Shown one piece after another: positions 16,256 to 59,850 of a DNA stretch of 64,000 nucleotides. Made by a program: the position numbers and the translations under genes. Location: assembly GCF_019649055.1 (NCBI RefSeq), contig NW_026570258.1:620001-684000 (forward strand). The letters run 5' to 3'. The DNA is from Paramacrobiotus metropolitanus. Its lineage: Eukaryota > Tardigrada > Eutardigrada > Parachela > Macrobiotidae. Below the pieces are notes generated by a model that searched no databases, had not been told where the DNA came from, and saw only the letters and a program-made list of their open reading frames with translations. Position 1 is the first letter of the stretch. Every line of letters starts with the position of its first letter.

Positions 16256-18088
16256 GGCAGGGGATAAAAGGTGGCAGTGGCACCTGCCACTGGCAGTTGC
16301 CGCTGGCAGTGGCATCTGCCACTACCGGGTCTGGCAAGCGATAAAACGTGGCAGTTGCCACAATACTAAAATCCGTCGTAGGTGACTCTGGTCACGTCCG
16401 GTCACTTCGGCAGCGGTAAATTTCAGGAATACGCGACTCACGTTTTGTCAAGTGCCCACACTTTGGTGTCAAAAAATTAAAACTTTTGTAACGCTTCTTA
16501 GGGAGTGGAAAAGATCGTAATATTTGACTCGTTAGATTCTTAGATTATTTCTGTTTTTTTAATTATGCACTAGTTGTAATGTTAAAAAGCAATACACGGA
16601 AGTGTTTCCGCCGACCATTTCTTTGCTTGGGAAATTCAAAGTTTCCAGACATGAAAGAGTATAACAACTTCATACCTAACCAGCTTAAATCAGCTGGAGT
16701 AGCTACATGATTTGTTAGCCTGTTTGTCCCCCTCTTGGGGACAGGAGAACAAAGAGGCATCCGAAAAGATTATGTTTAGACCCTAAGATCAGCCCATCAA
16801 ATGTTTTAGTACGATGGGTATGCTAGGAAACTGCTTTTTACTTCTATAGCCGTGTGATTAGTTTTCTGAGTTTATCGTCTCCTGGTTTCTCAGATGCTTT
16901 TGGTTCTTTTAAGACAACTGAGAAAGCGCAAGTTTTTCTTAGGTTTATAGGTTTTAGTAGATTTTTTAAGTTTTATTTCTAGGCACTCGTATTTCAGTCT
17001 TTTTAAATTTCTTTGGTTTTATTATCCTAGAATGTTTTCTGAGGCTTCTTAGGTTTTCTAGGTTTCTTAGGTTTCTTAGGATTCTTAGGTTTTTTTGTCT
17101 TATGGTGCTCTTTTTAAGCGAGTTTCCTAATTTACTGTTCGCATTTCTGATTTATAACTGTATGGTCGTGTTGTAACCATGCAGGAACTAGGAATTTTTG
17201 GGTTTAGCCCTGTTTAGCTTCTGCTTCGATATCTCGAAAAGTTTTCAGTTTCCTCACTGGGGACCAAGATTTTTAGATTCAGGAGTAAAATTCACGTATA
17301 AACTCAAAAAATTAGGTCAGTAGGTCGCGCCCGGTGGCTGGTATAATACTAGTATATCTTGATGAGGGTTAACGGGAACAGCATTCATGAGCTAAGAGTC
17401 TGAGACAAACGTGATCTACAACCTGTAAACAGATTTGTAAATAACTAATCTCGACTCTGGAGGTGATTTTCAAAGACCTGCATTATATTAACTGAATTAA
17501 TAAGATATTCATTAAAAGGGAAGTTTCGATTGAATGTAGGCGAAATGGGTGGATTGGGAGTGCTTCAGCCAAAATGTTATGTAACAGAAGTGATGATGTA
17601 TGAACTAAACAGGGGCCTAAGAAGCTTGGGCAATCTAAAGAATCGAAGTAAGCGTTAGCCCGCTACTATTGCCAGTACAGGTGACACTCCCGGTAATCAC
17701 CGTAATTGAGATGACTTAGGCCTTGTCCCGAATTCGAAGCGAATCTCATTATGGTACGGTTGCTCAACCGCACGAGGTGGCTGTATGCAGTGGCCACGCC
17801 TACAGATACGGTACGCGAAGCCACCTCGCGAGGTGGAGTTGCTGTATCGCAACGAGATTTGAATTCGGGACGAGGCCTTAGTATGGCAAAGGGCCGATAA
17901 AGTTTTGTAAAGTTTCACAAACAATTCGGCATATGAATGTTTGTGTTGATTGTGCATTACAACTGGGACGTATTTCGCATTTCTGGCAACTGCCAGATTT
18001 TATCGTTTGCCAGACCCAGTAGTGGCAGATACCACTGCCAGTGGCAACTGCCATTGGCAGGTGCCACTGCCACCTTTTATCCCCTGCC
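16256..18088. mobile_element. Foldback element with TGGCAGT-type arms (1.8 kb)
   Basis: Inverted repeats of about 108 bp with few mismatches form the ends. The left begins GGCAGGGGATAAAAGGTGG and the right ends in its complement at 18088. The arms are made of overlapping TGGCAGT/ACTGCCA units that are themselves self-complementary. Flanking 9-mers TTGATTTTT (16247-16255) and TTGATCCTT (18089-18097) are a plausible worn target duplication. The middle contains a TTCTTAGG-rich tract (about 16930-17095) as in two other foldback elements in this window. No transposase ORF. A smaller hairpin element lies inside at 17716-17880. Confidence 0.75.
17716..17880. mobile_element. Small hairpin element nested in the foldback element
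   Basis: About 165 bp. TTAGGCC..GTCCCGAATTC at the left end is matched by GAATTCGGGAC..GGCCTTA at the right end. A second inner inverted pair, CGAGGTGGC with GCCACCTCG, lies between. It looks like an independent MITE inserted into the larger element. No TSD resolved. Confidence 0.55.
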
Positions 18089-18097
18089 TTGATCCTT

Positions 18098-19880
18098 TTA
18101 AAAAAAATAATGTGTGGACAGTTGCGATGTGCCCCTTAAAAACGCCCGGGTGATAACATTTTCTCGCAGCGCAATCTCGCATCGATAAGTATTTCTGCGA
18201 AACCTTTTTTCCGTTTAATACGTCCCACTACGCACAAAGTGGGATGATGTGTGCCAGGAACAGTACATGGTAGATAATATAAACACCTGCTTAAAGGCTA
18301 CTTTTTTCTCGTGACGATTACTTCACAAAGTCTGTTGAAAACAGCTTTCGATTAAGGAGCATCGTTGCAAAGAATGATCAAGAAAGAAGACAAACTGAAT
18401 TCGTGGTAGAAGATTTAGTTGTTATGTACGCATATAAAATACCATAATTTATTAGTAAGACCGTGGTTACTTTATTAGGATAATGCGACTGTCGAGGTTG
18501 GGGAGCGATGGTTCTAGTATTCAGGCTGTTAAGCTAGTTGACTGGATACGAATCGAATTTACCGAGTGTTGATCGTGGATCGTAACATTGCAGCTTGCCA
18601 GCTACACGGTATAACCAAGCTCAACAGCAGCTCCAGTTCTTGAACTACAGGCTTAAGCCAGGATTCAAGATTACTAGGCAATATTCGCTTCACACATTCC
18701 TCAATTGAACAGCAGTAGAGAGTAATAGAACGGTCCAGCCTGCAAGGTCATTTTTCGATGCGATATTTTCACGAACAGCTCTCGGCTTTGAGGCATTTGT
18801 GGACTAGTTTTTACTTAAAACGACGCGGAGACAACCGCAACCGTGGTCTTCTATGCCAAACATAAGGGAGGCAAATTAAGGAGCCCGTTAGTGTCCAGTT
18901 TCCAGCGAAGACCTTTTCAAAAGCAACATTTTCTGGGTAACTAGCGTCTTACAGTGCACATAAAAGCTACGTCTCAAATTGAATGGGATACATATTGGTT
19001 CTATTTAGAACACCATAGCCTGCATTTAAAAAAGTTTTGATCCGTCTTTTGAACACTTTTCAGTTACACTCAACACTATCGGAATACGGACGAGCCCAAA
19101 GGCTGGGTCGTTCATCATGGTGTCGCATTGTTGTGTTATGCGCATAACTTAGTACTTTTAAAGTATTTCTCGTTTTTCGTGTAATAATCGTGACTGCGCT
19201 GCAAGTCAGTAGCGGTCAAAGCAACGGTAATGTGGATTATTATATGTAGTTCGAAGCAAATAATAACAATGTACGAGCTACCATATTTTTGTCTGCCGCT
19301 TGAGCCAGGAAAGCTTATTGAACCGGAAATCCATAATCCACAAGCCTTTCAGCCGTAGTCAACGTTCAAGCATCCTGTGACGCATGGCAACATGTGCCAG
19401 TGCAATGTTATATTAATTCCTTGTTACATTTGTTAGTTTACGTATTTAGTTGCGTAAGTATTAAAGAGCACGACGCTCCACGTCGTGACACATCCCCACG
19501 GAATGCTAATCCACTGTTACTCTGTTTCACCTTATTATTTACACAGTCAACGGGACAAACCCCGAAGGAATTCTTTTGACGATCTATTGTCATGTGGCAG
19601 TATTTCAGCACACTTTAAGCAGAAGTTCAGCATACTTCAGGTGCACGCACAGCGCACACCCACACTATATAACACCTATTCTTTCACTGTAAAGTGGATG
19701 GCACCTTGACTTTCCTTTTGACACTCTCGCTGTATCTACAACGTGTAACACTTGAGCTGTTTAAGTTAAATAGGAGTAGAACAGCCTTCCCAGGCGAGTT
19801 GTGACACTTCAGCAAAATTTCAGGCAAACTTACAGTTTGTTACAGGATTTCATAGTGTCAAAGCCTGAGGAATAACTACG
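18098..19880. other. Gene-poor spacer
   Basis: No coding or repeat structure that I can support between the foldback element and the next GR gene. Short ORFs are below 75 codons and lack motifs. Confidence 0.4.
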
Positions 19881-21415
19881 ATGGAATTTAAAACAGAAAT
19901 GACCGAAACCGGCAGGTTGAAAAATTACGAGAGTAAGTGCCGGGGTTGCTTGTTAAAATGCATAAGCGTTTACTCGGCCATTCTGCGAGTTTGTGGTTTT
20001 GGTTGTTTTCCTATCCGGCAGTCGTGTTTAAAGCATCCTGCTAATAACTGCATCTGGTTACGTGTTGCTACCGCCTTCTGGAGAGCCGCGGTCGGGGTTT
20101 ACTTTGCGCTGATAATTTGTTCGTCTGCCCTTAATACTTATCGTCGAATCTGTGCTTTCTCCGAGCGAAAGTGGGATGTAATAACTCAAAACATTTTAAG
20201 CGCTTCTGTTGGAATCTTCGCTCAGGCGGGTATGTCGATAATGTTCTTATATGCCACTTGGAGACACAACGAGGTGATGCACAAAATAGGTCACATCGAT
20301 CATCTCGGAATCCGATACCTTACCACACGGTACAAAAGGTCATTCTACGCGTGTGCAATTATATTGTCCACACTGCTCGCCGCCATCTTTCTGTGGCGCT
20401 TTGTGCCATTAATCAACGGGACATTTATCACCGGCAACGTCACGAAGGATTTCGGAATTCTATGGGCTTTGGCGGGCCTGCAATACAGTCACCCAGCTGT
20501 GTTTTTCTGTGCACAGGTGCTTTTTGTATTGTTCAACTTCGTCTATTTGGGATCGATTGCCGCTTACCAAATTATGACCATCATTACCGCGGGAGGCGCT
20601 GCGTTGTCCTTCCACGCATTACAGCACTGTTGCAAATCGGCTGTGAAAAAGGGCGACTTAAAAACAGTGAAAACGATATTAAACGACCACGCCCTATTAA
20701 GCGATGAAATAGCGGAGCTGGACGGTTTTCTGACATTTCCTCTTTTTATGCAATACACATTCTATGTTTTGTGTTTATTGAGGGGAATTTCGGCACTCAG
20801 CGACAGCAGTACAGACATTCGTGCTGAGGTTGACCTTTTCGGCGTGGCTGTTGTTTTAATTACAGTTTTTACCACCTGCTTCGTAATGACTAACACCCAG
20901 GTATAATTAAGCGTGACAACTGGTCGATTCGATCATTTAAATTATAATTTTGTGGATTAGATTCAGGCTAAATAAGGTTAGTTACACTTGGTTTCTTCTA
21001 GGCGGAATCCGTAGTGGCCCTATTGTTTAAACTCCTCCGCACTGACCTAGATCAGAAGGAGTACTGCTGGTTGTCCTCTTACATTCATAAGATCCAAACG
21101 GATCGCGTTGGATTCACCGTGGGAACGTTTTTTCTGATTGATCGAACGTTTGTGCTATCGGTACGACAATATAGGCTGATCTTTCAAACACGCTTTTCGT
21201 TGCCAAAATGCTTCATTAGTAATCTTTCGGTATGTCAATGATTTCTTGTCACCCATGATTTTCATTTGCAGCTGACAGGTGCGATTATCACTTACGCGAT
21301 CATCATTCTGGAAATGAATGGTAAAGAACATCCGGAAACCACGCAGTCTGGAGTTGACTTTGCATGCGAAAAGTGCCTCTATATAATGAATACGTCCAGA
21401 TTTGTCATTTTATGA
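19881..21415 (+). CDS. Divergent gustatory-receptor-like 7TM chemoreceptor, 440 aa
   Basis: Three phase-0 exons: 19881-20900 (340 codons), 21002-21160 (53), 21272-21415 (47 plus stop). The exon sizes and intron positions match the GR at 14695, although the sequence is very different. The second exon ends GFTVGTFFLIDRTFVLS. The third carries TYAIIILEM (about residues 400-408), fitting the TYhhhhhQF helix-7 motif with Glu for Gln. The N-terminal exon has about six hydrophobic segments. The ATG follows an AACTACG context and stops lie upstream. It looks intact. It converges on the alpha2/delta-like gene, with only 254 bp between the two stop codons. Likely a chemoreceptor channel; ligand unknown. 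Confidence 0.75.
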
Positions 21416-21669
21416 TGCTGTGGATACTTGGAGGCTAGCCAGTCATCGGACAGAAAACTTAAAGAAGCCAGCAATCCGGTGCCGGCGTAATGCAACAAGT
21501 GATTTAATAATATTGCTGATGTACTTATTCTAAATGTAATCTTTAGGGTCAAACTGGTAATATCTTTCCCGTAACGCTTATTCCAAAGTAAAATACAGCA
21601 CGAATTTGAAGATTTAGTTTCTAATCTGCTAAAGAATGCACACTGTACGAGAGTAATCCGTGAAGAACG

Positions 21670-24600
21670 TTATAAACCTCCGCATGGGATTTGGATTAGC
21701 GCATCATCTCGCATAACAGGGCAGTGGTCTTCTCCTTCGTCGTGGGGATCAGAATTACAGAGCTCTTCACCAACGTTGGAAAGCTCACCCAGTTGCTTGC
21801 GCATGACCTTATTAGCACTACCACTGCTTTGATCAGGAGTATGTGAAGGGGTTACGACGAAAGCGAAACTGTATTCCTCACTGGCAGGCGCATAGTAGTA
21901 GGTCATATTTTTCTGGAATCATGACATTTTGTAAGCATAACGCATTCACCATCAATAATAATTTTGCATTGACCCTTTTCCCCACAATATAATATTGGTA
22001 TAAGTTAGTGAAAGATTACCGTGAGGAGTGTTTTGTAACCTTTCTCTCCCCTCCGCATAGCCTGTTCAACGGCACCGAAGAACTCGGGATCGCCTGTCCC
22101 ATTTTGCTCGAACGCTTTGATGTTAACTGATCCTTGCAAAGCCTACAGTACGAGTCATTAATAGCATCATTTACCAAAGCTGTATAATACTTGTTTTATT
22201 TTGCTGGTCGATTCTCAAGGAGCAATCTTCGAACGAAGAACCTTGGGTAATTATGAGCGCAGCTAAACATAAAAGTACGCTACATATTTACCGGCATGTT
22301 TTTTGGGAGTTGTGGATGTATGATTGTCTTGCCTTTGCGGTCGATAACGAAAATATACCCGGGAGCCCATTTGTATCGATTAAGAAGCTCTTCGATTTCC
22401 GTTAATGTAACATCCACAGCAGCGAAACCCAGTGTTCTAAATAGACAAATTGCGTCGTGCCAAAGTCTAAAATGTACAGGCTTGCGAAAACCATACAATA
22501 ATCTAAGTAGTTTGCTTGTCCAGATGCACGAAAGCTTATTTAATCATTCAGAGGCTTATGAAGCCTCATACTTGCACTGGAGTGCATACCTAGTCTGAAA
22601 TCCTCAGAAAATTTGCTTCCCTATAATTTGTTCTATACGTTCAGTATAAGCAAATGAAACTAAAGCTTTACTACAAATCATAGTAAACAAATGGCGTTCG
22701 GTTTGTAAACAAATATCGCCTTCTGGTGTTGCAGCGTGGTTTAGCTCTGCCACGAAAATTTATGCGATGTGAAACTCTATATGTACGCCTTTCTCTCAGA
22801 TGGATTCTGCAATTTCCAATTTCTGCTAAATTAGAACTTATTGTTTCTTACTTATTACAGTATCTTGATGAAAATAAGAACGAAGTTATGATTAAAAGCC
22901 GAAAATGCAACAATGGCTTTCCCAAGATGTACCGTATTGAAATGCTGCAGTAAATTCAAGCAATTCTTCGAAATATGTACAAGTATCCGAAAAAACGGAC
23001 TTGCTCAAGTCGATGTATATGAATAATATGATGTCCGCATATTCGCATGATGACTTACTTTTGTAATTGATTTGGTTATTAGGTAACGTAATATTCAGAC
23101 GTAAGTTTCGGTTAATCTATTATTGACATAGACTTAAATAATGTACCTCATCGTCATTTTGCTGACAGCCGCCACGGCATATGTTATGGCCACACGTCGA
23201 TTCCATGGTTTCCGCTCAGGCGGAGTCCACAGCCCTGCCCATTCCACCGTTCGTTGTGACAGGTACACAAAATACGGCTGCATCTGGTTGATCAAATCGT
23301 CCGTGGTTGTTAAACTGACCACGGCACCTCCGCTGGAACACGACAAACTCTCGTGTAAAGCCCAATTACTATCTGCTCCAATAAGAAAACTGAAAATCCG
23401 CGCCTGTAACACAAGGTTTTTGCATTTTTTTTGCTGTCGGGTGTATGCGATTTTAACTATACGTGTTCGTCTTTTGCATCGTAGCGAACGTGAACTAACT
23501 TCGATGAAATGCAATCAAATGCAAAATAGCCATTACGTACCTTAGGTTTAATTAATTTGTTCTGAGAGTCGACCAGGTTTCGGACTGCGGTCTCACTGGA
23601 CTGTCCTTCGGTTTCGGAAGAATCTGGATAAGAAAATAATGCTTTACTACAAACAACAACAATCCATATCGTCGCTGCAGTATAATAGTAAAGTTTCAGC
23701 CTGTGCGGTGCGTTTGGCATCCGCTGCTGTCGTGAGCTTAAAAAGTAAATCACGTCAAACCTTTGAGTAGATGAAGACTTACGTTTTCCATTGCTGACAA
23801 AGATGATAATACTTTGACACTGCGTACGCCGAGAAGGCTTCAACAAATCGAATGCTGCTTGAAAACCGCTCCTGCAAACACAACCCAGTGCTATATTACA
23901 GTATGTTTAAAAAGCGTATTGATTGTATACTGCAAGCAAATAAGTAAAACGGGGAACACTGACTTGAACAGTCAGTTCACAACATAAAAATATAATTATA
24001 TGCATTAAAGGAGAACTCAACATTATGATCCAAGACTGAGAACAACGATATTAATAAAGTGTATTATGCACGATTCCATTTGCCGTTTATCGACAACGTT
24101 ACAAACTTTTAAAGACAAATTTTATCAAACTTAAGTGAATTTAACGGTTGGTGCAGTGCATGTTTCCGTGCATAGCTGGTGCGTTGGTCCGTGCAGCAAT
24201 GGCTTCGAAAAAATTAATATAAAGATCTTAGTTTTTTTATTTCTCGCTGTTTTGATTTTCATTTTACCGTATTGCTTTTCAAATGCGATAACGACATATA
24301 CTCTGTACAATGAAGCAATAAAAACAGCCAATGATACTTAAGATTACAACAAAAACAATTTGGATATGCGGTCAGAGTCAGGTACGGTTGTTGTTTTTAC
24401 TCCCAAGAGAGACCGTCTGTCGGAAAGAATGATAAAAGAGCCGACTAGAACAGTTCACGGCAAAACTTGTTTTTTTTTTGCCAGTTAGATACATATTATA
24501 CAGCATGGGTGCACTTCATAAAATCTTCATTCATTGGTACAAATGATTTTAATCGTGGACTGCACCCTCGTCATACACGCGCTGACACATACGTCAGGGC

Positions 24601-27523
24601 TCGCAGGTTAGCGCGTATACTAATTATCTGATCATTTCCTGCTTACCTGAGATCGCTGTTCCCAGTCGCCTGTAGACGGTTGACCGTCTCAACGATGCCC
24701 GCTTTATTGGCTGTTGTGGCTGGCACCAAGGACGCGTTATTGCAGCCTGACACTTCAGACACGGCATCTCCCGAACTGAAAATTAGCAGACATGTGCACT
24801 AGTATACAATTTCCAATGACAGTCTTCTTCAGGTGCTAGCTGAATACCGTACTCAAGGGTGTCTTTTTGCATACTGTAAATACCACCAATACAAAAAGCC
24901 CTTTGAGTACGCCATTGCCTATCTCCAACGTATTAACTGGGTAGTATTTCTATATTATTAAATAATTATTGTACAGATATGTTTAATCCATATTGTCCAC
25001 TGAAGGCGACCGTAATTTTGAACGAGTTCATAGCCGTAGTTTGTACCATGATGTTCTTACTTTCGTGTCGTCCGGTCTCCTTTTCGTGCACAAATTACAT
25101 TAAAGTAATCTAGAAGAACCGACAAAAGTTTTTTTAAACGGATGTACAGGAGCACACGAGCACAAAAAACAATACTCGATACGATTTCGATTGTAAATAA
25201 CCGTACCGCGACTGGTTAAAGCCTCAATAACAGTTGCAGCCACCGATTTAGCAACTGAGAAGTTTTCGTCATTCATGGAAAAGCTGAAATTATGTCAAGG
25301 TAACAACATACATTATTGTTACGTCCTTAAAACATTTTGTAAACAACCACAAAATAACGGAATAACGTTTCTTGCCTGCAGTCAATAATGATAACGACAT
25401 CCTTGGGTCCGCTTGCGACTGAATTGTACCTGCCAAGAGATATTACCACGTGAAATAATAAAAGGGTAGCTGGTTTGTGGCGCTGACAACCACCAACTGG
25501 TTTCGCTGCAGTTACATATGGTTGAAAAATGGGAAACATTAAATCGTTACGTTTATGTACATATGTATGTTACAAAGCACAGGCTGCATAGCTATATTCT
25601 ACATAATTATATACTAACAAACCCAGATTTCGAAGGCAAATGTACAGATATCTACATCTGTATCTGTAGGTACCATCCGGCAAAGTTTACCATGAGAGCA
25701 ATCTGGGGTCAGCAGCACGTTTGTATTCCGTGACATTTTTAGGACACTCACGGCCGGAGTATAACCGAAGTGGTCCTGTGTTTGTGCTAAAATATTGCCA
25801 TCTGAAACGACATTAAAAAAAGGTCAGACTTCAGTCGCTTTTACGTGAATTGCGGAAGACATCAGCATGGACAATGATGTTCATCGAACTGAACTCATTA
25901 TCAAAATCAAAGAAATGGGCCTGCTTAATTTGTCACTGACGAAATGTAACATTATCGCAAAGTACTTTACCCTATGGATTTATCAGCCAGGCTGTTCGGC
26001 CGGAATGCTGTCTCGTCCAGTCCAGCGCTGTACTGAATGGCTTCGATTATTGGTTCGCTGTCGTTGGGCAGGCGATCGGGGAGCACGACATAACTACGGT
26101 TGCAGTCGGCAACCTTGGGTAACACATGCAAACGATTTAACGAGTTCTGACCATCAGTACAGCAGACACTATCTTCGAACAAGTTTTGTAGCTAAAGTAG
26201 TAACGTTATCTTATGTAACGAACCAAATTTTGAACCGGGATTCTACCGTGAGTCTACCAAATACTTTTGTTCGAAGGAATATTTTTAGTTGCTTTTGGGA
26301 TCTAACCGTTTCATTCGTTTCCACGTTGAATTTCCAAAATAAAGATGACGGCATCTCCGCAATATTTTTATAGCGGATGGTGTTGTTGTCCATTTTCGAC
26401 ATCAGAAACTCGTCATAAAGTGTTGTAGCGCCCGCAGCGATCCGCTGCGTAAGTACTTTAAATAAGTTATTACAAAAATTATATTATTTCTACCGGTGCA
26501 TTATTCACCCATCCGTGGTACGAACAGTATAAGAACAGATACGAGTATATGCCTATGTTCTGAATTACACAGAAATGCTACTGGACTTCGATCTGGAGTT
26601 AACACCCACAGCAATAGCGGTAAACCTACAGTTGGTAACCACCACTTTACAGTCCACTGCATTGCTCTACTAATAGAATATGGTATTTCTGTATTCATTT
26701 ATTTTTATTGCCATTTTATTGTTAAATATTTAATTATTTGTGGTTTTTTATTATTTTTTTGTTATTCTAGGAAGTAGTATTTATGCAGTACCTAATTAGA
26801 CTACACTCATTAAAGCACAGAAATATCACATTCAAATAATGCAGTAAATGTATATATGTACTGTATGCACATAAAATTTCATAATGATACGAAGTACTAT
26901 AACTACCGTCTGTAACCCTCGCAGGACCAAATCAAAGAACATACGGACCTGTGCAGCTCTCTTTCTCCGGACCAGCAAGTCGCTTAAGTTGAATTCCGCC
27001 ATTTGCATGCGCCATTGCGTGTCCTTGTGTGTTTCGTTGGTGAAAGTCCCTAGAGCCGTTTGCCGTGCACCCCTTACAATTTTCCCATTGGCAATCTGTA
27101 ATTTCTGGTACATGATGAATTCAGCAGTATAGGCAAACTAGTTGTATACTAGTTACAGTCGAGTGCAGTCGCAATCTCGATGAACTGTTTTTGCTTTTCT
27201 AGAGGTTTACAATGACTTGTATAGGAAAAGACTTTTTGTGTACTTAAGCATTTCTGTATACTATTTTCATGTACACCAGCATGTAGAGTATCAAGCAGTA
27301 CGGGCATAATAACGTTGTATACTTCAACTACAATTTATTTATTTTAAAAGTTACAAACTATAAACTTCGGGGTTTCTCCTCGGTCTGTTGAAATCCTTAC
27401 ATCATTGGGTCGTGACCCCGTTGCCGTGCGATCGATATTATGGAGCTCTGCTAGAGTTGGCAGACTGCAGTAGGCAACTGTGGATATAAATGCTTGTACA
27501 GCAGTAATGACCGAAATGTGCAT
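21670..27523 (-). CDS. Calcium channel alpha2/delta-like protein (VWA plus Cache), short form
   Basis: Exons placed in phase: 27401-27523 (signal peptide), 26949-27095, 26258-26444, 25971-26172, 25376-25429, 25202-25283, 24647-24775, 23783-23871, 23541-23623, 23147-23403, 22292-22436, 22020-22142, 21670-21912. In order these give an N-terminal helical region (LVRRKRAAQ), then a VWA domain opening GPKDVVIIIDC with an intact metal site DCSFS across an intron. LVPATTANKAG, AAFDLLKPS and IIIFVSNGK follow. A Cache-like region contains VDVTLTEIEELL, YIFVIDRKG, IIHPQLP and YYYAPASEEYSF. This is the order in alpha2/delta and CACHD1 proteins, extracellular subunits that raise surface levels of voltage-gated calcium channels. 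At least one VWA exon between 25202 and 24775 is not placed. The protein ends much earlier than the usual family length, with no C-terminal anchor seen. Confidence 0.7.
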
Positions 27524-28017
27524 CGTGCCGAAGACTTCCGCGCAACAATAATTCAATTACGCGTGATGAGTAGGAATACGCGTATTATGCAATATTTCAG
27601 CTGTTTTGGAAACAGTTAAAATCACGTTTTATAAACAGTAAACTACTTATTTTATCGAGTGCTGCAGGATAAGGGCAAAACAGGCAAAACAGTCCGGCAG
27701 GAGCGCTGTGCGCTCTTCGATCATACGAGATAACGCCACTAAAAATTTAATTTCCTTACAGCGAACCTTTATCGGATGAGCCAATCTGGTATTTGTACTT
27801 CCAGACTAACCAAGTGCATTGTGCCGTACTTTCTGAAAAATCCCACGGTGATTTGTTCTGTTGATACGTCGATGCAGCAGTTCTTACAACAAAAATTAAC
27901 AAACGTTATCGGCTGGTACTAATGTTCATCTTGTGGCAAATTTTGCTGTTAACAAACTGATTGCTTTAGTGTCCATAACATTAACATAAAGATAAATTAT
28001 TATCATGCCAATGTACA
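27524..28017. other. Spacer upstream of alpha2/delta-like gene
   Basis: Presumably contains the promoter of the minus-strand gene ending at 27523. I see no specific motif or coding signal. Confidence 0.35.
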
Positions 28018-28769: not shown

Positions 28770-29140
28770 TATCCCCCGGACATCTCGTCGCAGACATTTC
28801 GCTGCATGGTAGCTAAAACATACGAGAAACAAAACGAATAAAACACACTGAATCAAATCAACGAAGCCCAAGAACCCTAAGAAATCTTACGAAAATTTAG
28901 CAAAATTTGAAAAATATCTGGAAAACCTGTGAAAACGAAGTGCGTCGCATTGTTTGCGGCAAATTGTCGCATGCTTCGAGAGTCCCACCAGCAACACACG
29001 TTTCGCGTCGGATTGTCGCAAAGGCAGAATGTCTGAGAACGATATGTCCGAAACCCTACAGATAGTGTCCCAGCGTGACTATGTTACGCTTAGAAAAGTC
29101 GCGCGTCGATTTGCGTGAAGCGAAATGTCGCGCTCCCAGT
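28770..29140. repeat. Worn GACATTTCGCNGC-type repeat tract, possible old foldback element
   Basis: Left part has GGACATCTCG and GACATTTCGCTGC. The right part has many inverse-sense units such as GCGGCAAATTGTCGC, GCGAAATGTCGC and GATTGTCGCAAAGG. The middle holds CCTAAGAA motifs (complement of TTCTTAGG). The layout and unit sequence resemble the clear foldback element at 58156-58904, but the arms no longer align well and I find no target duplication. Confidence 0.4.
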
Positions 29141-44930: not shown

Positions 44931-44939
44931 CTTTTTTCT

Positions 44940-48660: not shown

Positions 48661-48671
48661 CTTGAAGAAAT

Positions 48672-48731
48672 CCAGCGAAATTCTCCTTTTACACAAATGA
48701 TCCAGCGAGATTCTCCTTTTACACAAATGTC
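48672..48731. repeat. 30-bp tandem duplication
   Basis: Two adjacent copies of a 30-bp unit beginning ATCCAGCGA and ending TTTTACACAAATG, differing at one base. Noncoding. Confidence 0.85.
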
Positions 48732-50841
48732 AGTAAGCGTCAATGGCTTTTACATAAAACAAATTACTTCAATTAAGTTTCTTGACGGTCCTATCCGTAA
48801 GATTGTATTAAAACGGCAAATTCGCGTTGAATTTCGATGATATTGTAATTTGTAAATGAGCTGCACCATAAATTTTGTTTAGACTCAGCAGGAAATTGTG
48901 TCTGCAGTATAACTTTACAAGCGCTTTCACCGGGTTGCAAAACACGCGGTCAATACAGGCAAAGCCAGAACTGAACGGTAGCACACAGGTAAAAGCGCCA
49001 TCAGATCGCTCCTGATGGATCGATACCGCGATTGTGGATACAGTCTGTTTTAGGATTATTAAGAGGGTTCCCTCCATGGCGCACAGAGAGAGAAAATAGC
49101 TTGTGTCACGCAGGTACACCAACTGCTTTCTCTTCTCCCGGCATCGTCAACCTGAGCGGGTTTTCTTAGAATGATTACACCGTTATTCCCTGTGAGAACG
49201 CTTGTTAATGTTATTCTGTGCTATACTGGGGACAGACGAGTGGTATACCGTGATTGGGGCAACTGCGTGGTGGCACAACGCTGCAGTATTTAAAATCCTA
49301 TTTCAAAGTCAGTACGCTTCGCGATAGGCCTGGAATACACTGCACGTGCTGATATGCTGGAAAGGGAGGAATGGCAAACACATCATTCCTGAAAATTGAA
49401 AATTAAAAATAATGACATGGTAGTGCTTTTCTGTCCCGATGCATTGGCTGGAACATGATTATCCCCTCTATAAATTTTGATGATTAGAAATGAGCCTTAA
49501 CGAAATTCCATTCGTGTCGGATCTGCGAGAACGGTGCGCTAACTAAGCTATCTATAGGTGCCATGGGGTCAGTTTCCAATAAAAGTGTGGGAAGTGAAAA
49601 AAGGCAAACCATTTGATATACAGAACTTATGGGAACGGTACAAAGACAGCAGTTAGGGACGTAGCTGCTGCCGCGAGCGGTGTGCGTTTTTGTTTGGAAA
49701 GACATGCGCCAAACAAGGTCACCTTAACCTGTGCTGCTCAAAGCTCGCTCAAGTAAATAAAAAGATGAATATTTTTGACACAGACTCAAGGTACTTCTAT
49801 ACGTGTAATGTACCTAGCTGCAGTTGGCGTTTCTCAGGACTTTTAAATGCTCCAGAATTAGTTTTCTAGAATAATAAAAAATAAGACCGAAATGATTACC
49901 TTGTCTAAATGCGTTCACTAGCGAAGTATCGTATCAAGAAGATAAATCTGTAACGAGACTTCAAGGATACCGGCGTGGCCGGTTTTTCAGACTTTGTTTA
50001 TTATTTCCTAAATTTGTCTGACATTAATTGGTTGTTTGCCAGTTTATATTTTTATGCTGAAGCTGCAAAAGGTCACCACCAGCCGCAGTGCTCCACATTA
50101 AGACACTGTGACTTTTTGAACTTTCGCGATCAAACGACAGGGCAGATTTTGCAGATCTGGGTGCAGATTTTGCTGCAGATTTTGCTGTTGTAAGAGTTTT
50201 GGGCTAATTGATTGTAGTTGGCAGTATTGACCGCACTTGTTCTTTAATCGAAAGACAACCCAAACGATTAGACGACAGGAGCCTCTGTGGCCATGGATAA
50301 TTGCAAGAAACTGTTGTACTTAATTACATCACTGTAATTTCGGCCGGTATTAGTTGATTATGCCACAGTAATTTTGCCCGAGTATCATTATCATGTCACA
50401 GTAATTTTGGCCCAGTATTTGTTGACCTTCAAAACACGTCCACTATATCGTCTCGTGAAATACGCGGCGTTGACGTAGAGAACAGGTCGCTATTCGGCTG
50501 GCAAAAGGTGGGATAAACGCGATAGATCTGGTTGACTTGTAAATATCTTCCATCTGCTGGGCGCTATTCCAAATTAATTTTAGTAAAAGGCTGACTGTCG
50601 CTAAAGAATTCCAGTGTCACCGGCTTGCATGCATACATGTTACGAAACAGTGCGAGGAAACGGTTGGGATGTCTAACGAAGAAAGGATTCAATGCAGGTA
50701 TCCAAATTTCTTATCGTTTGATTTGTCAGCAGTTTTCCCTTTGTATTATGTCAAGCAATGCACCAGTAACGTCTTAGGTCCTTTGCATGAGCAGCAGCAG
50801 CCTCGAGGAGCGGATATCCGTTCCGACTGGGCTTCCCGCCG
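48732..50841. other. Gene-poor spacer downstream of GPCR-A
   Basis: A minus-strand frame at 48808-49122 (104 codons; it has an internal ATG and the stretch MEGTLLIILKQTVS) is the only sizeable ORF. It has no recognised domain or paralogue, and I do not call it a gene. Confidence 0.35.
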
Positions 50842-52532
50842 TTAGCGTCCGTGCACGCGTAAACGGATTATCTCAAGCAGACCAGTCTGATAGTCTTTGT
50901 TCAAGGAGAAGAAAAACATCTAAAGTGGGTTAAAATTGCAAAACGGTTACTTTAAAATCGATCAAGACATGCGGACATGCGGCAGCATGTGAGTTACCAT
51001 TTTATCAGTTCGTTAATGCAAGTTTTTATGGATACCAGCATGAAACTGTGCGGTTACGGTAAGTTTCTTTACCGGTGTCATAACGTAGCCACACAAATAT
51101 ACCGTCCGCAGCCATAGCTGAAGCCCCGCCACGCTCTGTTCGTACATGGGAACGCGCAGAATACTGAGAATATTTTGGGGATGGTAGCAGGCATTGTACC
51201 ATAAGGATATGCCGCATAACAGTTTGGCCATCTTGACGCGCCGATCAAATTGTCCTTGCCGATCAGACCGCATCTATAAAAACAATTAATGGTAACTTCC
51301 AACGTTCAAGTACAAGCACGTCCAAGTACGTCTCATAAGAGGTCATTCGCATTTCATTGAGCTTAGATGCGGTTTCGGTGGAGTATCGGTGCTTAAAATG
51401 CCCTCTTTATAGACCACATCAGGCCAACTTGAAATCAGAACTATTGCTTATTGTTGGTTTGGAGCTTGATCTGAAATTTTCTGCTGTTCATTCTGCTCCA
51501 GTTGCTCCTACTCTTAAAACTTGCCTCTGTGTGCATACAGTTATCAAAAAGTGATACTAAAGCGCCTTATCTGAACATCAATAACATGCGCTTTAAAGTA
51601 CCTTCAAAATTCAAATTGTGTCGGATTCTGCAGATTGTAAGGTCCAGCTGCGCAAAGCATAATCAAAAAACAGGGAATCACAGGCTCAATTTATTGTCCT
51701 GCTCGTAAATTTGAGATAATTTTCAATAAGTACGGTAAGCACAACGCAACTGAAACGCGGGTTCCGCTTAGAGATAATTTCGCGGTTGTATTTGAAACTT
51801 TTTCAATTTCGTTATTTACCACCGTACCTGGTTATTTTGCACTCTTTGAGGAGAACAGCACTGCAGACGAATAAACATGATCAGGTAAAGTACCATCAAG
51901 AGGCCGGTAGGGAGGTACACTCCCAGCGTCCCAACGATTTTCGGATACGGTCCCACGGTGTGCAATAAGATCGCGCAGTTATTCCACGTCTTGTCCAGAC
52001 CATACGTGCCCACCACACCAAAGAGCGGCGGCGCCGTCAGCACCAACCCAAAGACCCATACAGCCGCTATCTGCGCGGCTATCGCTGTTTTCGTCACCCA
52101 TCGCCAGTACATATGGGGATACAGGGTGGCCACGAAGCGGTTGAGGGCCAGGGAGAACTGCGCCCAGTTGGTGATCATCAAAGTCGTAATAAAGGGGAAA
52201 TGGATGCCGGCACAATCACGCGGAGTAAAGAAACCGCGGTGACCGCTGTGGATGTTGAGGATATTCAAGGGAATGTGAATAGCCACGACGCTCGTTTCCA
52301 GGAGAATCTCATGCAGGATCAGTGCTCCGCAACCGGTGCGGTAGAAGCGACCACGGATGATGACCATAATTAGGAGAATGAAGAGGATCGTCCCAAGGCC
52401 GGCAATAATCATTGTTGTGCTAAACCAAACGGTTACTTCGCGTTCGTATTTTATCCAAACAGGCGGCTCGGCATTGCTGTTCCAGTTCCGGTTGGAGAAG
52501 TTACCGTTCGCGAAACTTTTACCGTCCTCCAT
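50842..52532 (-). CDS. GPCR-A: rhodopsin-like receptor, 327 aa
   Basis: Three phase-0 exons: 51828-52532 (235 codons), 51073-51273 (67), 50842-50919 (25 plus stop). Exon 1 starts at a real ATG and has an N-terminal tail with glycosylation sites (NFS), then helices 1 to 5 with short loops. Exon 2 holds the third intracellular loop, helix 6 and most of helix 7. Exon 3 gives the end of helix 7 and a short C tail (SLNKDYQTG). Helix 3 ends LALNRFVATLYP, so the usual DRY is NRF. The helix-7 NPxxY position reads TPMFF. Both changes are seen in some invertebrate orphan class A receptors and may alter basal activity. The neighbouring GPCR-B is a close tandem paralogue. Ligand unknown. Confidence 0.82.
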
Positions 52533-54736
52533 CCTGGAATAAAGCTGATCTGCTAGAACGAGGCTGTGAAAAAACGCGCGTTCTACACGTTTACAATTTA
52601 CGACAAGAGTTTTGTCATGCCGCGCTGGCTTAAGGGGTGAGCTTAGCGGTAAAAGTACAGAATCACTGGCGTGTGTTTATCCGATAATATGTGCCGGAAT
52701 GCAAATATCGTTTTAAATAATGCAACTGTAAAATTGTATAGACGAGCATGGGTGAGCGTAAATTCGATTCCGTCTGATTGGCTTGGTCATTCATCGCGAT
52801 ACAAGATGGTACCAAAGCAATGGGCCTTAGTTCTCAATTATTTACCGTTAACATTAGGTATAATTACTTTGTTTTCAAGTTTTCGCTGTTTGGGTTTATG
52901 AAGAGAATTTGCAGAAGGAGCGCTTCCGGTTGAAGAAGCTTTGATTTCTTTACATTGTAGATGCAGCTGTCTCCGGCACGTTTCAGCTGCAAGGTTTTGA
53001 GAAATTCGTAGACAGACCGATACCATATCCAGTTCTTTGTTGCGCCATGTCCGGCATGGCGCTGATCAATTAGGTCAACGACACGGCGACAGCCCGACGA
53101 CTATATGCCAATAATTACGTGCGTCAATCGACAGAACCCGAAAATCTGTTAACGGTAAATCCGTGGGCATAAGGTAACTAACGTTTGGGCTGATTAACAT
53201 TTTTGTATTCATTAATCACCTGTAAAATTTAATATGTTATATATCGGTACATACCTTTCGAAATGCGCTCGATGCAATTCTATGGAGAGATATCGGTAGG
53301 ATTACCTTCAGGCTTCAGCTGATAATTTTGGACTGCGAAAACTTTGTCCTGTCACTGTGCTTTGCTAAATGCCCGGAAGTTTTTTGTAATAGATTAAGAA
53401 TGCTGCTTCGCGGTCACACTGTATTTTCTTCAGCTTTAACTTGATCACTTACCGATGATTTCTTTTCAAGTCTTCTTAAGTTCAGTCAAGCGCCTATGGG
53501 ATACCGTTGGCTGGTGCTTCTTCTCTTGAATTCATTGTCTGGACCGCTGGAGATCAGCGCTTAGGCTTGCAAAAACCTAGCCATACATTCATGACGCTAC
53601 GTTCGTTTAACATGCTCCAAATTTACAACAGCATGTTGTTCCAGAGTAACTGCATTTATTAATAGCAACAATTCCAACTTGATATTCCATCCTTGGAATT
53701 TCATAGATCATGTTAACTCCGAATACAAGCACAGCAGCACCACTTGGCTGAGCTTTGATCCTCAAGCGAGCAACTTTATTCCCCCCCCGATTTCTTCTGC
53801 CAGGGGTACACCATGCATTGTGCCCATGATTGGCTCTCAAAATACGTTTGTGACAGCAGGCCGCAAACAGCTTACTCCCCTACTGGTAAACTTGTAATGC
53901 TTCCTTAATTTCCGCGCTCATTGAAATTATTAATTGCTGATGTAGGACAGACACCGGGAAAGGTTTTGACGTATTCTCGTCAATATTCCGCCGCTTCCGT
54001 TGCACGTTACGACTGTAATACCGTACACATTTTCCAGAAATATTTCCTTTATTCTTTGCGCTCGTACTCTTCAAAACCTCGCGAAGACTGAAGATGCAAA
54101 ACAATATGTACCAGAAACCATTCTTCCGCTCCAAGTTTGATATTTATGGGTTACAGCCACTTCAAACGACAAGAATACAAGCGCTAATTAACAACCATAA
54201 TATATAATCTGACAATTATAAAGCAAGTCACTTATGCATAAATTGCGCTGATTTGGAATATCAAACGCCTGTCAGCAATGTTTTTATGCATTACTGTATC
54301 TCCAACATGCGCCAAAACAAAAGTAGCCCGTAGCGGGGAAACCATTCGGCCATTCAGCCACCACAACTGGCGTCGACCATTCGGCCACTTCTGAAAGGTT
54401 GTACCGGCATTGACATTAATTTATCATGACGCTACAACTATGTACATTTATGCAAAAAAAACTTTTCTGGGAGCGCTTTCGCTTGACCAGTGAAAATTGA
54501 ACATACAGACTAGATTGTGGAGCCATATAAATTCGCCAACATTCATGGTTTGTACTCTTCATAGGGTCAATAAATGCCAGCGATGTACTGTAGCGATACG
54601 ATCAAGTTAGACTACAAAATTCGTGTCCGAAAACTTGAGTGCATTGCTACAGTATGACTTCCGCGTCCATAGATGAGCGGATGCAGTCGGATATCCCTTC
54701 CTCGTGGTCTTTCCGCAGTCAACGTTCACGGCAACT
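52533..54736. other. Spacer between the two tandem GPCR genes
   Basis: Should contain the GPCR-A promoter just upstream of 52532. Short minus-strand ORFs at 53607-53840 and 53880-54134 start at non-ATG codons and have no recognised motifs. A poly-C tract lies at about 53782. Confidence 0.4.
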
Positions 54737-56413
54737 TCACGCATGCGTTGAGCGCGTTATCTCCAGCAGACCATTTTGATAGTCTTTGTTCAAGGAGAAG
54801 AAAAATACCTAAAATTAGACAGGATTGCGTTGAACGAGGGACGGATGATGTAACCCTTACGCCTTGTTAGCTAGCAGTGCTGTACTGTACGGTAGGAGCC
54901 TGGGGATCCTATGTGCGATTACTAAGCGTTCTTGTCTTACCGGTGTCATAATGTATCCGCATAGATATACCGTTCGCAGCCAGAGCTGAAGTCCCGTCAC
55001 ACTTTTCTCATATATGGCAGTGTGTAATAAACCCAGGATGTTCTGTGGATAATAACAAGTATTATACCATAACGATATGCCGCACAAGAGTTTCGCCATG
55101 TTAACTCGTCGCTGAAATTGTCCTGGCCGCTCAGAATGCATCTGCAAAGGCACACACCTGAATTTATGTACATTTTTCCTTGACGAAATTTACTCGAATT
55201 CTTACGCAGTCAAAATACTGAATTTAATTTTTAATTTTGAATTCTGATGCACTGCGCTCAGATGCATTCTGGATGAAGTACATCTCCCTGCCTAAACATC
55301 AGATCTCATTAGGAATTAGGAGAACATGATTTATAATAAAACTGCAGGTGTCTTTTGCTTGTTCGTAACTCGATGTCGTGCTTCTTGACTTTATGCTGAA
55401 CAGTCTCTTACGCTTTTCCTAAACCAATCAGCGACAGTATACAATTTACCAAGCCGTAAGGGATTCTTTCTCAAATTAAGGGGCAACACGCAAAAGCCCA
55501 GATCTGTTTAACACTGGTTTTAAAAACCGCTTACAAAACTTCTTTACTGTTAGCTCATATGGCGCAAATACCCATATAATACACAAATGAGGAGCTGCTT
55601 TTTAATTTGTTTTCGTCTTATGTCCTAGTACGGAAGAAATTCTAAAGGATCAATCATACTGTAAAATATTTTGGGGCCAGGATTTTACAAATGAAGCCAG
55701 CTGTGCTACCGTACCTGATTATTTTGCACTACTTGACGCGAGAAGCACTGCAAGCGAATGAAAATTGTCAGATACAGTGCCATTAAGAGGGCCGTCGGGA
55801 GGTACACTCCCATCGTTCCACCAATTTTTGTGTACGGTCCTGCGTTGCGCATCAGGAAGGCGCAGTTATTCCACGGTTGATCTAGACCATACGTGCCATC
55901 CACACCAAAAAGCTGAGGCGCCGTCAGCAGCAGTCCCACACACCAAATAATTGCCACCTGCGCGGCCAGCGCCATTTTCGTTACCCACAGATGATATTTA
56001 TGCGGGTACAAGGTGGCCACAAAGCGGTTCAAAGCCAAGGCGAGCTGCGCCCAATTGGTAACCATCATGGTTGTGATGAAGGTAAAATGAATACCGGCAC
56101 AGTCACGCGGTGTAAAGAAACCGCGGTGACCGCTGTGGATATTGAGGATATTCAGGGGAATGTGAATGACCACCATGCTCATTTCCACGAGGACTTGATG
56201 GAGGATCAGGGCACCGCAGCCGGTGTGGTAGAAACGTCCGCGGATGATGACCAGCAGTAAGAGAATGAAGAGGATCACGCCAACGCCAGCAAGGGTAATT
56301 GTTGCGGCGAACCATGCGGTTAATGTGTAGTGATATTTGATCCAAGCTGGGATTTCTGTGCTGTTGTTACTGCTCTGGTTTAAGAAGTAGTTACGAAGGC
56401 TACGGTTCTCCAT
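54737..56413 (-). CDS. GPCR-B: rhodopsin-like receptor, 323 aa
   Basis: Same structure as GPCR-A: exons 55715-56413 (233 codons), 54941-55141 (67), 54737-54808 (23 plus stop), all phase 0. The two proteins share long identical stretches, for example LNILNIHSGHRGFFTPRDCAG in the first extracellular region and SLNKDYQ in the C tail. They differ mainly in the N-terminal tail, loops and last ten residues. Helix 3 again ends LALNRFVATLYP and helix 7 has TPVFF. Tandem duplication with full exon conservation is clear. The gene appears intact. Ligand unknown; membrane receptor coupled to G proteins by family. Confidence 0.82.
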
Positions 56414-57213
56414 ACCCGAATCGTTAAATGAGTGCTGCCGGCAAATTTGCAGGGTGAATATCTATAAGGGAATGGAAGTGCATGTAACGGCAACACAGAT
56501 TCAACTACGCCTTGAGATCCCTGTCATTTAAAAATGGTACGCGAGCGTGCGTAAACTGTACTTAGCTTGTAGTAATTCAAAGATGCATTAAGGGATTATA
56601 TGCTGCTAAAGTTATTAGTGTATGAGTTTCACCGGAAAAACTCCTTTTAGTCGCAGAAAGTAATAGAAATTTCTTAGTAATGTGTGGATCGATGGGGGAG
56701 TTCCGCCTTCCGTGATTATTGAAAGGCGGAAGCCGAGTCCGAGTTCAAGCCGTCAGCTTATGCTGGAAACTTTGTAGCCAACGTTGCCAGGGATGAGCTG
56801 ATTAACTATTTCTCTGGAACTCCCGAGTAAGATGTGTAACGAAATCTGATCAAGCCGCCTATAAGCTCACCGACACGATAACAGCCGATGGCGGGAGAAT
56901 ATGAAGGTAATTACGAGTGCGAATCGGCAGAAAACTGAACTCCAACCGCGTAAACTGATCTACATCTGCACCTTACGCCAGTTTAACTTGATTACAAATG
57001 CATTATGTAGCATCGAACTACATTATAGAAACGGTTTGTCCAGACAGTTACCAGTAGTCGTCACTTTACGAAATGGCAACGCATAAACTAATGACGCCGG
57101 CAATATGCGCATTTTGTCCTCTGGCGTAAAATTTTTCTATATACCGGTCGGTCGGTTACCTATAAAACTTATATAATATATATATCGTATACCTCTCATT
57201 TTTGCTCTCACAC
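56414..57213. other. Spacer upstream of GPCR-B
   Basis: No coding signal seen. Presumed promoter side of GPCR-B. Confidence 0.35.
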
Positions 57214-57415
57214 TATAGGGGGCAAAAGTAAACGTGTTCCACCGTTCCCCTGTACTGCTGCCGTCACCCGCCTGGAGTTTGGCGTTGTGGCTGAACATGG
57301 CGCTTATGTACCGCGCCAGATTTAACCACATGTATTGCCGTAACGTCACACTCCAGACGGGTGACGGCAGCAGTACAGGGGAACGGTGGAACGCGTTTAC
57401 TTTCGCCCCTTATAT
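57214..57415. mobile_element. MITE with 60-bp near-perfect inverted repeats
   Basis: About 200 bp. The arms share AAAGTAAACG, GTTCCACCGTTCCCCTG, TACTGCTGCCGTCACCCG and CTGGAGT in inverted orientation over about 60 bp with only about five differences. The unpaired centre is about 70 bp. The left flank is CACTATA and the right flank is TATATAA, so TATA or TA could be the target site. The arms' low divergence suggests recent activity. Confidence 0.75.
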
Positions 57416-58054
57416 AATAATCTGACGGTAACTCAGTATCGTTTGCTATATCTGTATGTGGTAATTTAGATCTTACGCCGTTGTCGTTATTCGTTAACCT
57501 TCAACTTCTTATCACGAATCCACGATCAACCGATTATGTGAGTTAACGCACGGCGGTACCTAGAGCATTAGCAAAATTCTAACGCCGCCGAATCAGACGC
57601 AGAAGCAAAAAATGGAGCGTACCCTCCCGTTTTTGTGAAGAATGTCTCTTACGAAATTCTTTGAGCAAAATCTTCTGCCATCTGACATCAAATTGTAAAG
57701 GGTTCAATGGCACATGAGTCAGTCAGTATGTACGCTAAAACCGTACGTGATTGAGATTATTTCAGTTTGAGTGTTGACAGGTTATTACCACTCGGTCAGA
57801 GCATCCACGTACAGCACTATACATTTATTTTTCCACAAGAACTAGCTGAATAACACATTCACTACATATAAGTCATTCGTACCAATTATTGCCGACTACT
57901 GCCAAGGAGAGGCAAATAACAAACACGTGATGCATGGGGGGTGGATTTTAATTCCATAAAAATCCCTGGCAAACGATTGGTCTGCCGGTACAAGGAAACA
58001 CCTAACACAGAACGCCTGCACACAGGCAGGTAATCCTCCAAACCCCCAAACAAC

Positions 58055-59850
58055 TCACTGCTGCATTGCACATGATGCTATACACGTTGCAAATTCGTTC
58101 CTGCGCTCATTGTCCAACGTTACATACTGAGCGTAGCAGTTACTGTGCCAGTTCCGCACCTGGACATTTGGGAGTGTATTTCGCCGCAATTAAATTCGAC
58201 GCACGACTTTTCGCCGCGAAGAAATTTCGCCGCGGGACATTTTGACGCTGGGACACTTCGGTTAGGGACAATTAGCATTGAGACATTTTGACTTTGCGAC
58301 ATTTTGACGCAAGACGTCTGGTCGCGGACACTTCGCCGCAAAAGCATTCGACGCGTTTAATTTTCGCAGTTTTTCCTGGTTTCTTGGGGGATTTTCTTAA
58401 GTCTTTTGGTCTTTTTCAACTGCTCTAAGGCTATTCTTAGGTTAGCCTTAGGTTATTCTTGGGCTATTCTTAGGTTTCTTAGGTTATTCGTAGGTTATTC
58501 TTAGGTTTCTTAGGTTATTCTTAGGTTTCTTAGGTCATTCTTAGTTATTTTTAGGTTTCTTAGGTTATTCTTAGGTTATTCTTAGGTTTCTTAGGCTATT
58601 CTTAGGTTATTCTTAGGTTTCTTAGGCTATTCTTAGGTTATTCTTAGGTTTCTTTGGGTTTTGTGATGTTTCTTAACCTTCATATTTTAAAGGTTTACCT
58701 GCTCAAATGGACTTTTCGTCAAAACAGCCCTGCGGCGAAATGTCTCGACGTCGAAACGGCCGGACGACGAATTGTCTCGCGGCGTAATGTCGTGCCGGTT
58801 AAATGTCCGACGACGAAGCGTCGCAAGGCCAGATGACCTTGCGGCGAAATGTCTGCGACTAAAAGTCCTGCAGCGAGTTGTCGGCGGCGAAATGTCGCGG
58901 TGCCGCCAGTTCCCTTGTGCCTTCACAACCTCTGCGGATGCTCCCAACGATGCTGCAAGGGTCGCACCGCCACGGCGGAATGAGTGTGTTGAGATATGCG
59001 ACGAATCAATGCCTGCTTTGGCCAATACTTTCTTGAGGTAGCCGTTAAACTGCTTTGATGTCATGCTTATCAGGACTTTGTTTCTGCGATAGGAAAGAAG
59101 GTGATCGTTTCCTTTTGCCCCACTCTCGGCAAGCATTTCCTGAATTGCTGCTACCGGACACAATGCCTTAGCCTGCGCAATTTCCGGCATAACCACTTCA
59201 ACTGATCCGTTCCTGTAACGATTAGATTTCAGCGCCGGTGCGGTGACCTTATAACCAATGACCACGCGACATAAGTTTTTCACCAAAACATGCCGATTAC
59301 TGCTGGTGCAAAATAAGTTTGAGCTGCGGAAAAGCGAGAAAAATGCCAACAAACATGCTGCTCAAAACGTTGCTCGGATTCCTTCCGGGACAACTCGTAA
59401 ACGCTGCCGAATTGCAACTAGTGTACTCAGATTTATGCCCACGCGTTTGTGAGGTAACTCTTCGCACTGCTTTTGTGCGCCTGCCAAGGCTTCCTTTATT
59501 GCAAAATGTGAAAGATCTGGTGCGTCCAGGTTCTGCGAATGATGAAGAGATGCTAGACTGGCCACATAATTTATTATCGTTGTATACTGCAACGAGCTAC
59601 GGCGCAACTCGGTAACATATAGGCAAATCGTATGAGGCGAAGCCGGGACTGCTTGAAGTTTATACGCGCTGCAAAACTGCTCAAATCTGCTCCACTGGGA
59701 GCGCCGCGTTCTTTGTGACGAAATCGCTGTGCCACAACTGCGCAAGTGCCTCAGCTGCCTCTCCAGTTCCGCCTTTGGAATATGAGGCGCTGGTCGTCTG
59801 CGGTAAGCGTGCTCCCGGGAAGCTGCGAAAAACAGATACAAATCTGTCAA
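58055..59850 (-). pseudogene. Tyrosine recombinase of the DIRS/Ngaro element, frameshifted and interrupted
   Basis: The first part (59850-59362) gives SQWSRFEQFCSAYKLQAVP and SLASLHHSQNL. A frame change near 59350 leads to the second part, with LLSYRRNKVLI and the HSFRRGGATLAA box (HxxR). The second part reads to QGNW at about 58910, where the foldback element begins. On the other side, at 58146-58055, the same frame resumes with HSNCYAQYV and a TGA stop, supplying the expected catalytic tyrosine region. The target duplication lies exactly at this junction. So the enzyme was probably functional before the frameshift and insertion. Confidence 0.75.
58156..58904. mobile_element. Foldback element with GACATTTCGCCGC arms, perfect 9-bp target duplication
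   Basis: 749 bp, inserted in the recombinase gene. The left arm (58156-58380) is a degenerate array of units such as GACATTTTGACGC and TTCGCCGCG. The right arm (58690-58904) has the complementary units GCGGCGAAATGTC. The core (58381-58689) is a dense array of TTCTTAGGTTA units. Flanks are GCCAGTTCC at 58147-58155 and 58905-58913, a perfect 9-bp direct repeat. Ends are GCACC...GGTGCC. The interrupted reading frame continues across the site, which fixes the borders. No coding capacity. Confidence 0.85.

Follow-up and report, generated by a model that had tools for sequence, protein, structure and literature searches.

A 64-kb window of Paramacrobiotus metropolitanus DNA (64,000 nucleotides; contig NW_026570258.1, positions 620,001 to 684,000) contains two foldback elements, here called element 2 and element 3, that share a minisatellite core of (TTTCTTAGG)n or TTCTTAGG-type repeats. 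We consider it probable that both are non-autonomous Mutator-like elements (MULEs), that their arms and tips are the recognised part and that the core is a passenger that has moved from family to family. Arms of tandem units and asymmetric tips are particular to each family. An earlier sequence-only reading of the window had grouped elements 2 and 3 with a third foldback, element 1, on the basis of a common core, unrelated arms and 9-bp target duplications, and had proposed that the core is recognised while the arms are rebuilt. The observation was largely right and the interpretation is mostly reversed: the arms, not the core, look like the family-specific part.

Element 2 founds family A and element 3 family B, and whole-element searches with either returned many end-to-end copies (40 scored of 994 candidates for element 2, and 40 of 964 for element 3). 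We read 20 A and 18 B copies, nearly all of them end-to-end matches, together with the window copies. The right tip of family A is found at 373 places with up to two mismatches and the left tip of family B at 155 places with up to three, while the reversed controls are found at none. The nine-base flanks are alike in at least eight positions in 16 of 21 A copies versus 1 of 420 mismatched pairs, and the same 9-mer test gives 13 of 19 B copies versus 2 of 342. Taken column by column, the flanks of family A agree in 16-19 of 21 copies at a length of k=9 and in 3-11 at k=7, 8 and 10; those of family B agree in 11-16 of 19 copies at k=8 and in 1-11 at k=7, 9 and 10. Family A makes 9-bp and family B 8-bp target duplications, which rules out a uniform 9-bp duplication across families. 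Element 2 itself is as it had been described, with inverted tandem-unit arms (87 nt, complementarity 87%), seven exact copies of TTCTTAGG in its core and flanks that agree at 9/9 positions. The plan of element 3 also stands; its start moves from 58156 to 58155 and its duplication shrinks from 9 to 8 bp, because the apparent ninth duplicated base is the first C of the element. In all 21 A and all 19 B copies the tract has a single orientation, these copies having been chosen with a query that contains the core.

The transposase-bearing relatives tell which part of such elements is inherited with the enzyme. MULE searches with PF10551 and with the exon-1 protein of locus L046 gave 39 and 50 matches, respectively, and 36 MULE loci were fetched. 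Inverted repeats span the MULE domain at 7 of 10 (L034 short), 9 of 12 (L042 AT-rich and doubtful) and 9 of 14 loci, and the transposase domain lies between arms of four types, C, D, F and G. L041 and L046, whose exon-1 proteins are identical, are bounded by arms and tips of type C, and these arms match those of the tract loci L015, L016, L018, L019 and L026. As in family A, the type C tips differ between left and right and lie outside the tandem arm units. Type D arms are found at L053, L054 and L055 (L054 left arm only, by eye), type F arms at L043, L044 and L056, and type G arms, whose unit is a relative of the B unit, at L057-L062 and L064 (L061 by eye). A Pfam scan, made on exon 1 of L046 alone, returned FLYWCH (2.8e-9) and MULE (1.5e-6) and no PHD. 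Arms of types C, D and F flank FLYWCH-MULE-like transposase genes. MULEs make target duplications of 8-11 bp. Those found here fall in this range, with 9 bp in A, 8 bp in B, 9/9 in L041 (TGTCACAAT) and L046 (GAGCTCGCT), and 8/8 in L057 and L058; type C, like A, makes 9-bp duplications. Element 1 has 7/9. In a tree of exon-1 sequences from 21 loci, types D (92/86, not starred), F (97/97) and F2 (99/98) and type G together with L063 (97/92) each form one group, and the two identical C proteins group with the armless L047 (100/99); the arm labels of L054, L061, L063, L065 and L066 were set by eye and the labels were not shuffled. Because D, F, F2 and G are each one group, the arms appear to be inherited together with the transposase. 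We read them as family-specific terminal repeats, like those of Phantom and Tm1, because C, D and F arms flank FLYWCH-MULE-like genes and arm type follows this tree. The suggestion of a Mutator-like context holds for types C, D, F and G, and transposase-bearing MULEs with matching arms exist for C, D and F; none was found for A, B or element 1. That the arm units are entirely different is too strong for part of the wider set, in which the B, D, F and G units vary one CATTTCGGCC-like theme by eye. Further MULE arm types, with the units ACGCGCGAG, CACCACGTTT, CTATGCGCCAGG and TATAGGCACCCC, were seen at L031, L033, L038, L032, L040, L048, L050 and L052, and the duplications of L031, L033 and L040 agree at 9/9 positions.

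Families A and B would be MULEs by their build and the size of their duplications and, for B, also by a unit and an 8-bp duplication like those of group G. No transposase with A or B arms was found when the 39 and 50 MULE matches were compared by eye with the listed A and B places (100 of 373 A and 100 of 155 B); four good matches among the 50 (C285:33619, C80:491991, C339:29951 and C79:245682) fall outside the loci read. In locus L136, which covers the 1.7 kb upstream of a coreless A-tipped interior, neither an A unit nor TTCTTAGG was seen, and frames do not exceed 106 aa (no domain search was made there).

The tract itself is abundant. The dimer TTTCTTAGGTTTCTTAGG has 1315 + 1491 = 2806 exact occurrences in 169.8 Mb versus 0 + 0 for the reversed pattern, and chance origin is therefore excluded for (TTTCTTAGG)n as such. 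An ordered sample of 100 listed dimer places of the 2806, on contigs C1 and C2, yielded 30 fetched loci, in which arms were called with an arm library and from self-inverted repeats. Foldback or MULE arms lie in or beside the tract at 25 of the 30 loci, a count that stands without a random-position control (the four arm-bearing elements of the 64-kb window give a rough background for arm density). Seven arm types are represented: A (5), A2 (4), B (4), C (5), D (4, including one within a MULE), F (2) and E (1). The tract of L006 sits inside the MULE L053 and is armless only within its 2-kb cut, the cuts of L012, L027 and L029 contain an arm on just one side, and L030 (type E) was assigned from its inverted arms and not from the library. 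Several arm types round one core, in many copies with target duplications, are what the sequence-only reading had looked for. Five loci (L001, L007, L009, L023 and L028) lack recognised foldback or MULE arms. Another tandem repeat, R (GTACGGATGTAGATCCCGTAAACTGGTTA), is arrayed in L028 (C2:1052500-1060200) with TTTCTTAGG tracts of its own and is also seen in L009 and in the right part of L011, where it provides the second tract of that locus.

Of the ends picked by their tip alone (351 or 456 bp read), 5 of 8 from A and 2 of 4 from B contain at least two exact copies of TTCTTAGG, and the remaining 3 of 8 and 2 of 4 contain none; the coreless cases were read at the near end, and the coreless B end L134 has a short stretch of arm only. 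Twelve of the first 13 A tips listed were read, nine of them with core, and five of the first seven B tips listed have it. Since tip-picked ends carry it in only part of A and B, the core is frequent in both families, yet not obligatory. A coreless A-tipped interior recurs at nine places (L126, L127, C17:170836-189929, C17:387058 and C90:433102), at least four of them beside an A tip; on C17 three copies are spaced at about 9.5 kb. The tracts of A, B and D have a rarer unit in common, TTATTCTTAGG, which suits independent growth less well than exchange or a common origin. The unit TTTCTTAGG includes TTAGG. A telomeric origin is not supported, as TTCTTAGG was found at none of the 16 ends of 8 contigs (260 bp per end), although contigs may stop short of telomeres. 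Among the literature matches listed, the motif was not found named as a transposon core.

In type C, three tract loci, L018, L019 and L026, are colinear with the transposase-bearing L046: the 5' arm and subterminal region extend to 1527-1537, followed by the tract, by a short, degenerate exon-1 remnant (about 1963-2112) and by the sequence from 3775 to the 3' arm. By this alignment they are evidently internal deletions in which a TTTCTTAGG tract replaces most of the gene. L015 and L016, also of type C, retain less of L046, and the duplication of L016 agrees at 8/9 positions. In L053 and L054 the tract lies inside the intron that separates exons 1 and 2 of the transposase gene; both genes are damaged, L053 by two stops and L054 by more than 1 kb of CCCGGACACTTTGGTCGGAGTACCATTT-type tandem repeats (gene-oriented positions about 2500-3821), perhaps another foldback arm, which cut off exon 2. 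Sense tract sites with at most one mismatch number 22 each in L053 and L054 and 0-1 in 17 other elements except L055, which has six; the exact sites of L055 begin at 3437, past the end of its 3' arm near 3106. The transposase-bearing elements of types C, F and G that we examined lack the tract, with 0-1 sense sites within one mismatch. The tract is in transposase sense at 5 of 5 C loci, in 3 of 3 D derivatives, in L053 and L054 and at one readable F locus (L013; the other, L029, is one-armed), and A2 elements have it in both directions.

These observations can be joined into a sequence of events. The tandem arm units would be arrays of binding sites for the transposase, changing in step with it, and the arms with their tips would be the part that it recognises. 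Incomplete repair of an excision gap might give rise to deletion derivatives; the polymerase could then switch template into a TTTCTTAGG tract belonging to another element, and this tract would afterwards expand and contract by slippage. The core would thus be a passenger module passed among families and not a transposition signal. We infer the binding role of the arms, the part played by gap repair and the direction in which sequence was exchanged; we favour arms as binding arrays and a core as passenger because there are known foldback MULEs whose arms consist of tandem units (Tm1, Phantom) and because the repeats of Galileo contain binding sites. Module exchange during gap repair is at present the leading, if unproven, explanation for a minisatellite that recurs in fixed orientation in so many families.

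Several observations count against this explanation. The fixed orientation of the tract (in A and B, and in transposase sense where readable in C, D and F) is not what random exchange would predict. Tracts are also present in repeat R (L009, L028 and part of L011), and three loci (L001, L007 and L023) hold tracts with no recognised arms. With A, B and element 1 arms no transposase turned up, and their membership among the MULEs is read from build, duplication size and, for B, likeness to group G. Finally, the type C derivative L015 has no duplication (2/9), and type G duplications are imperfect in L059 and L062 (6/8 each), L064 (3/8) and L060 (1/8).

Common descent is the rival that survives best, although we think it unlikely. 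In the ancestor of this FLYWCH-MULE clade the tract would have lain in the 5' leader or the intron; it would then have disappeared from most autonomous lines and persisted in small deletion derivatives. The intron tract of L053 and L054 is indeed in transposase sense, a single TTCTTAGG is present in the 5' leader of both, and the C, D and F derivatives share the orientation. However, none of 12 other introns examined holds the tract, including the 143-bp intron of the sister locus L055, it sits in different places in D (intron) and in C (from the 5' subterminal region to the exon-1 remnant), and loss would have to be repeated in C, F and G. Convergent selection appears rather improbable. Here the tract would be functional, for example as a pyrimidine-rich stretch like a 3' splice site that hides insertions in transcripts, or as a flexible spacer between the arms. 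To our eye TTTCTTAG/G resembles a 3' splice site, the orientation is fixed within A and B, and in L053 and L054 the tract is intronic, whereas the A2 tracts run in both orientations and A and B ends without core exist. We would give only a slim chance to a mixed version, in which one minisatellite is a mobile module taken up by several foldback MULE families, in transposase sense, because it is useful, for instance if a repeated splice-like stretch allowed transcribed insertions to be spliced or tolerated. It is very improbable that TTTCTTAGG is a genome-wide minisatellite that happens to sit in these elements: the five armless loci of 30, repeat R and the missing random-position control speak for coincidence, whereas arms in or beside the cut at 25 of 30 loci, the single orientation in all A and B copies read (picked with a core-containing query) and the retention of the core in tip-only picks (5 of 8 A, 2 of 4 B) speak against it. 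The proposal that the core is conserved and recognised while expansion of repeats or templated synthesis remakes the arms is hardly credible and already largely contradicted, for although one core is common to seven arm types and the arms consist of tandem units varying in number, arm type tracks the transposase clade, L041 and L046 combine arms and 9/9 duplications with no core, and coreless A and B ends exist.

Element 1 stands apart. Its arms (129 nt, complementarity 87%) and its 7/9 duplication in the window bear out the earlier description; its tract is not shown to be a family trait. Among 40 scored of 1150 candidates two other copies were found, L105 and L106. L105 matches element 1 end to end and is about 628 bp shorter; its element strand has no TTCTTAGG, with one in the opposite direction, and its flanks show no target duplication by eye. 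L106 matches only to position 655 of the element, and the tract, which begins at 781, is beyond its reach. With L105, the sole informative other copy, lacking the tract, element 1 is not supported as a core-sharing member. A stretch of element 1 comprising the tract and about 270 bp recurs in locus L107, in which the arms of element 1 gave no match. Among the candidates scored with element 1, the nested MITE (miniature inverted-repeat transposable element) has 36 other matches of 92-96% identity.

Features of the window, with positions counted from its first letter
Feature	Start	End	Strand	Remarks
Element 1, low-copy foldback, unit TGGCAGT	16256	18088	+	core-sharing membership unsupported
Block of element 1 missing from copy L105 (ends approximate)	16942	17569	+	contains TTTCTTAGG tract 17036-17092
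Palindromic MITE nested inside element 1, about 170 bp	17713	17882	+	
Worn type B relic	28770	29140	.	arm matches 28778-28810 and 28995-29084; tips alike by eye
Element 2 target duplication, left copy	29489	29497	.	GTTCACCAC, 9 bp
Element 2, foldback family A	29498	29801	+	unit GACTCTGAC; tips GGCCTAGACTCC / GGCCCGCGCTCAAGC
Element 2 core, (TTTCTTAGG)n	29605	29694	+	
Element 2 target duplication, right copy	29802	29810	.	GTTCACCAC, 9 bp
Element 3 target duplication, left copy	58147	58154	.	GCCAGTTC, 8 bp
Element 3, foldback family B	58155	58904	+	unit GACATTTCGCCGC; tips CGCACCYGGACATTTGGG / GGCACCGCGACATTTCGCC
Element 3 core, TTCTTAGG-type, 9- and 11-bp units	58424	58675	+	16 exact TTCTTAGG
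Element 3 target duplication, right copy	58905	58912	.	GCCAGTTC, 8 bp

The worn relative that had been suspected upstream of element 2 is a worn type B element. Adjoining element 3 on the minus strand, 58687-61069 holds matches to RVT_1 (3.7e-20) and Phage_integrase (1.9e-5; 24.9 bits, under the Pfam cut-off of 27.1), pieces which we take to be a DIRS-like retroelement, and the integrase frame extends into the right arm of element 3. A 534-aa frame at 61201-62805 (plus strand) has no Pfam match at 0.001, and two similar receptor-like frames lie on the minus strand at 51816-52676 and 55706-56461, the first matching 7tm_1 (1.8e-13).

Many related MULE families with differing arm arrays and comparable transposases in one genome make the co-change of arm units and DNA-binding domain testable. 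The shared tract is a marker for the exchange of internal sequence between transposon families and for the origin of non-autonomous elements through internal deletion. If the core is indeed a passenger, transposons that move independently of a minisatellite could nevertheless spread it across the genome. Known systems offer partial parallels, and target duplications of 8-10 and 9-11 bp are entered in a published Mutator table (PMC6446971). Galileo, a foldback of the P superfamily, has long, internally repetitive terminal inverted repeats (TIRs) whose tandem repeats contain transposase binding sites (PMC3688188); its transposase is of THAP/P type, whereas arm type C here goes with FLYWCH-MULE and no THAP/P. 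Tetris, a foldback of Drosophila virilis, has 8-9 bp duplications in complete copies, tandem repeats in its TIRs and a variable middle domain; no autonomous copy of it was found, and the passages drawn on describe no core common to arm types (PMC4079207). Rehavkus combines 9-bp duplications with a minisatellite before the 3' TIR (PMC6446971) and has a PHD finger, in contrast to FLYWCH and MULE with no PHD in L046 (type C). In build, elements 2 and 3 appear close to Phantom and Tm1. Phantom (Mutator, group 20) is outlined as having FLYWCH in some members, a MULE transposase, 8-10 bp duplications, TIRs of 18-613 bp or none and, in aphid members, a minisatellite after the transposase open reading frame (PMC6446971). 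The N-terminal FLYWCH and the MULE domain are also seen in exon 1 of L046; compared with that outline, one minisatellite is found here in several arm families, either within an intron or replacing the gene. Tm1 of Meloidogyne (Mutator/Foldback) is portrayed with 9-bp duplications, asymmetric short tips outside arms of about 14-bp tandem units, a FLYWCH-MULE transposase and non-autonomous copies with different interiors (PMC3169594). Families A and C likewise have asymmetric tips outside tandem arm units, with unit and tip letters that differ from those given for Tm1. As far as that account goes, Tm1 is one arm family with several interiors, whereas the elements described here are several arm families with one interior.

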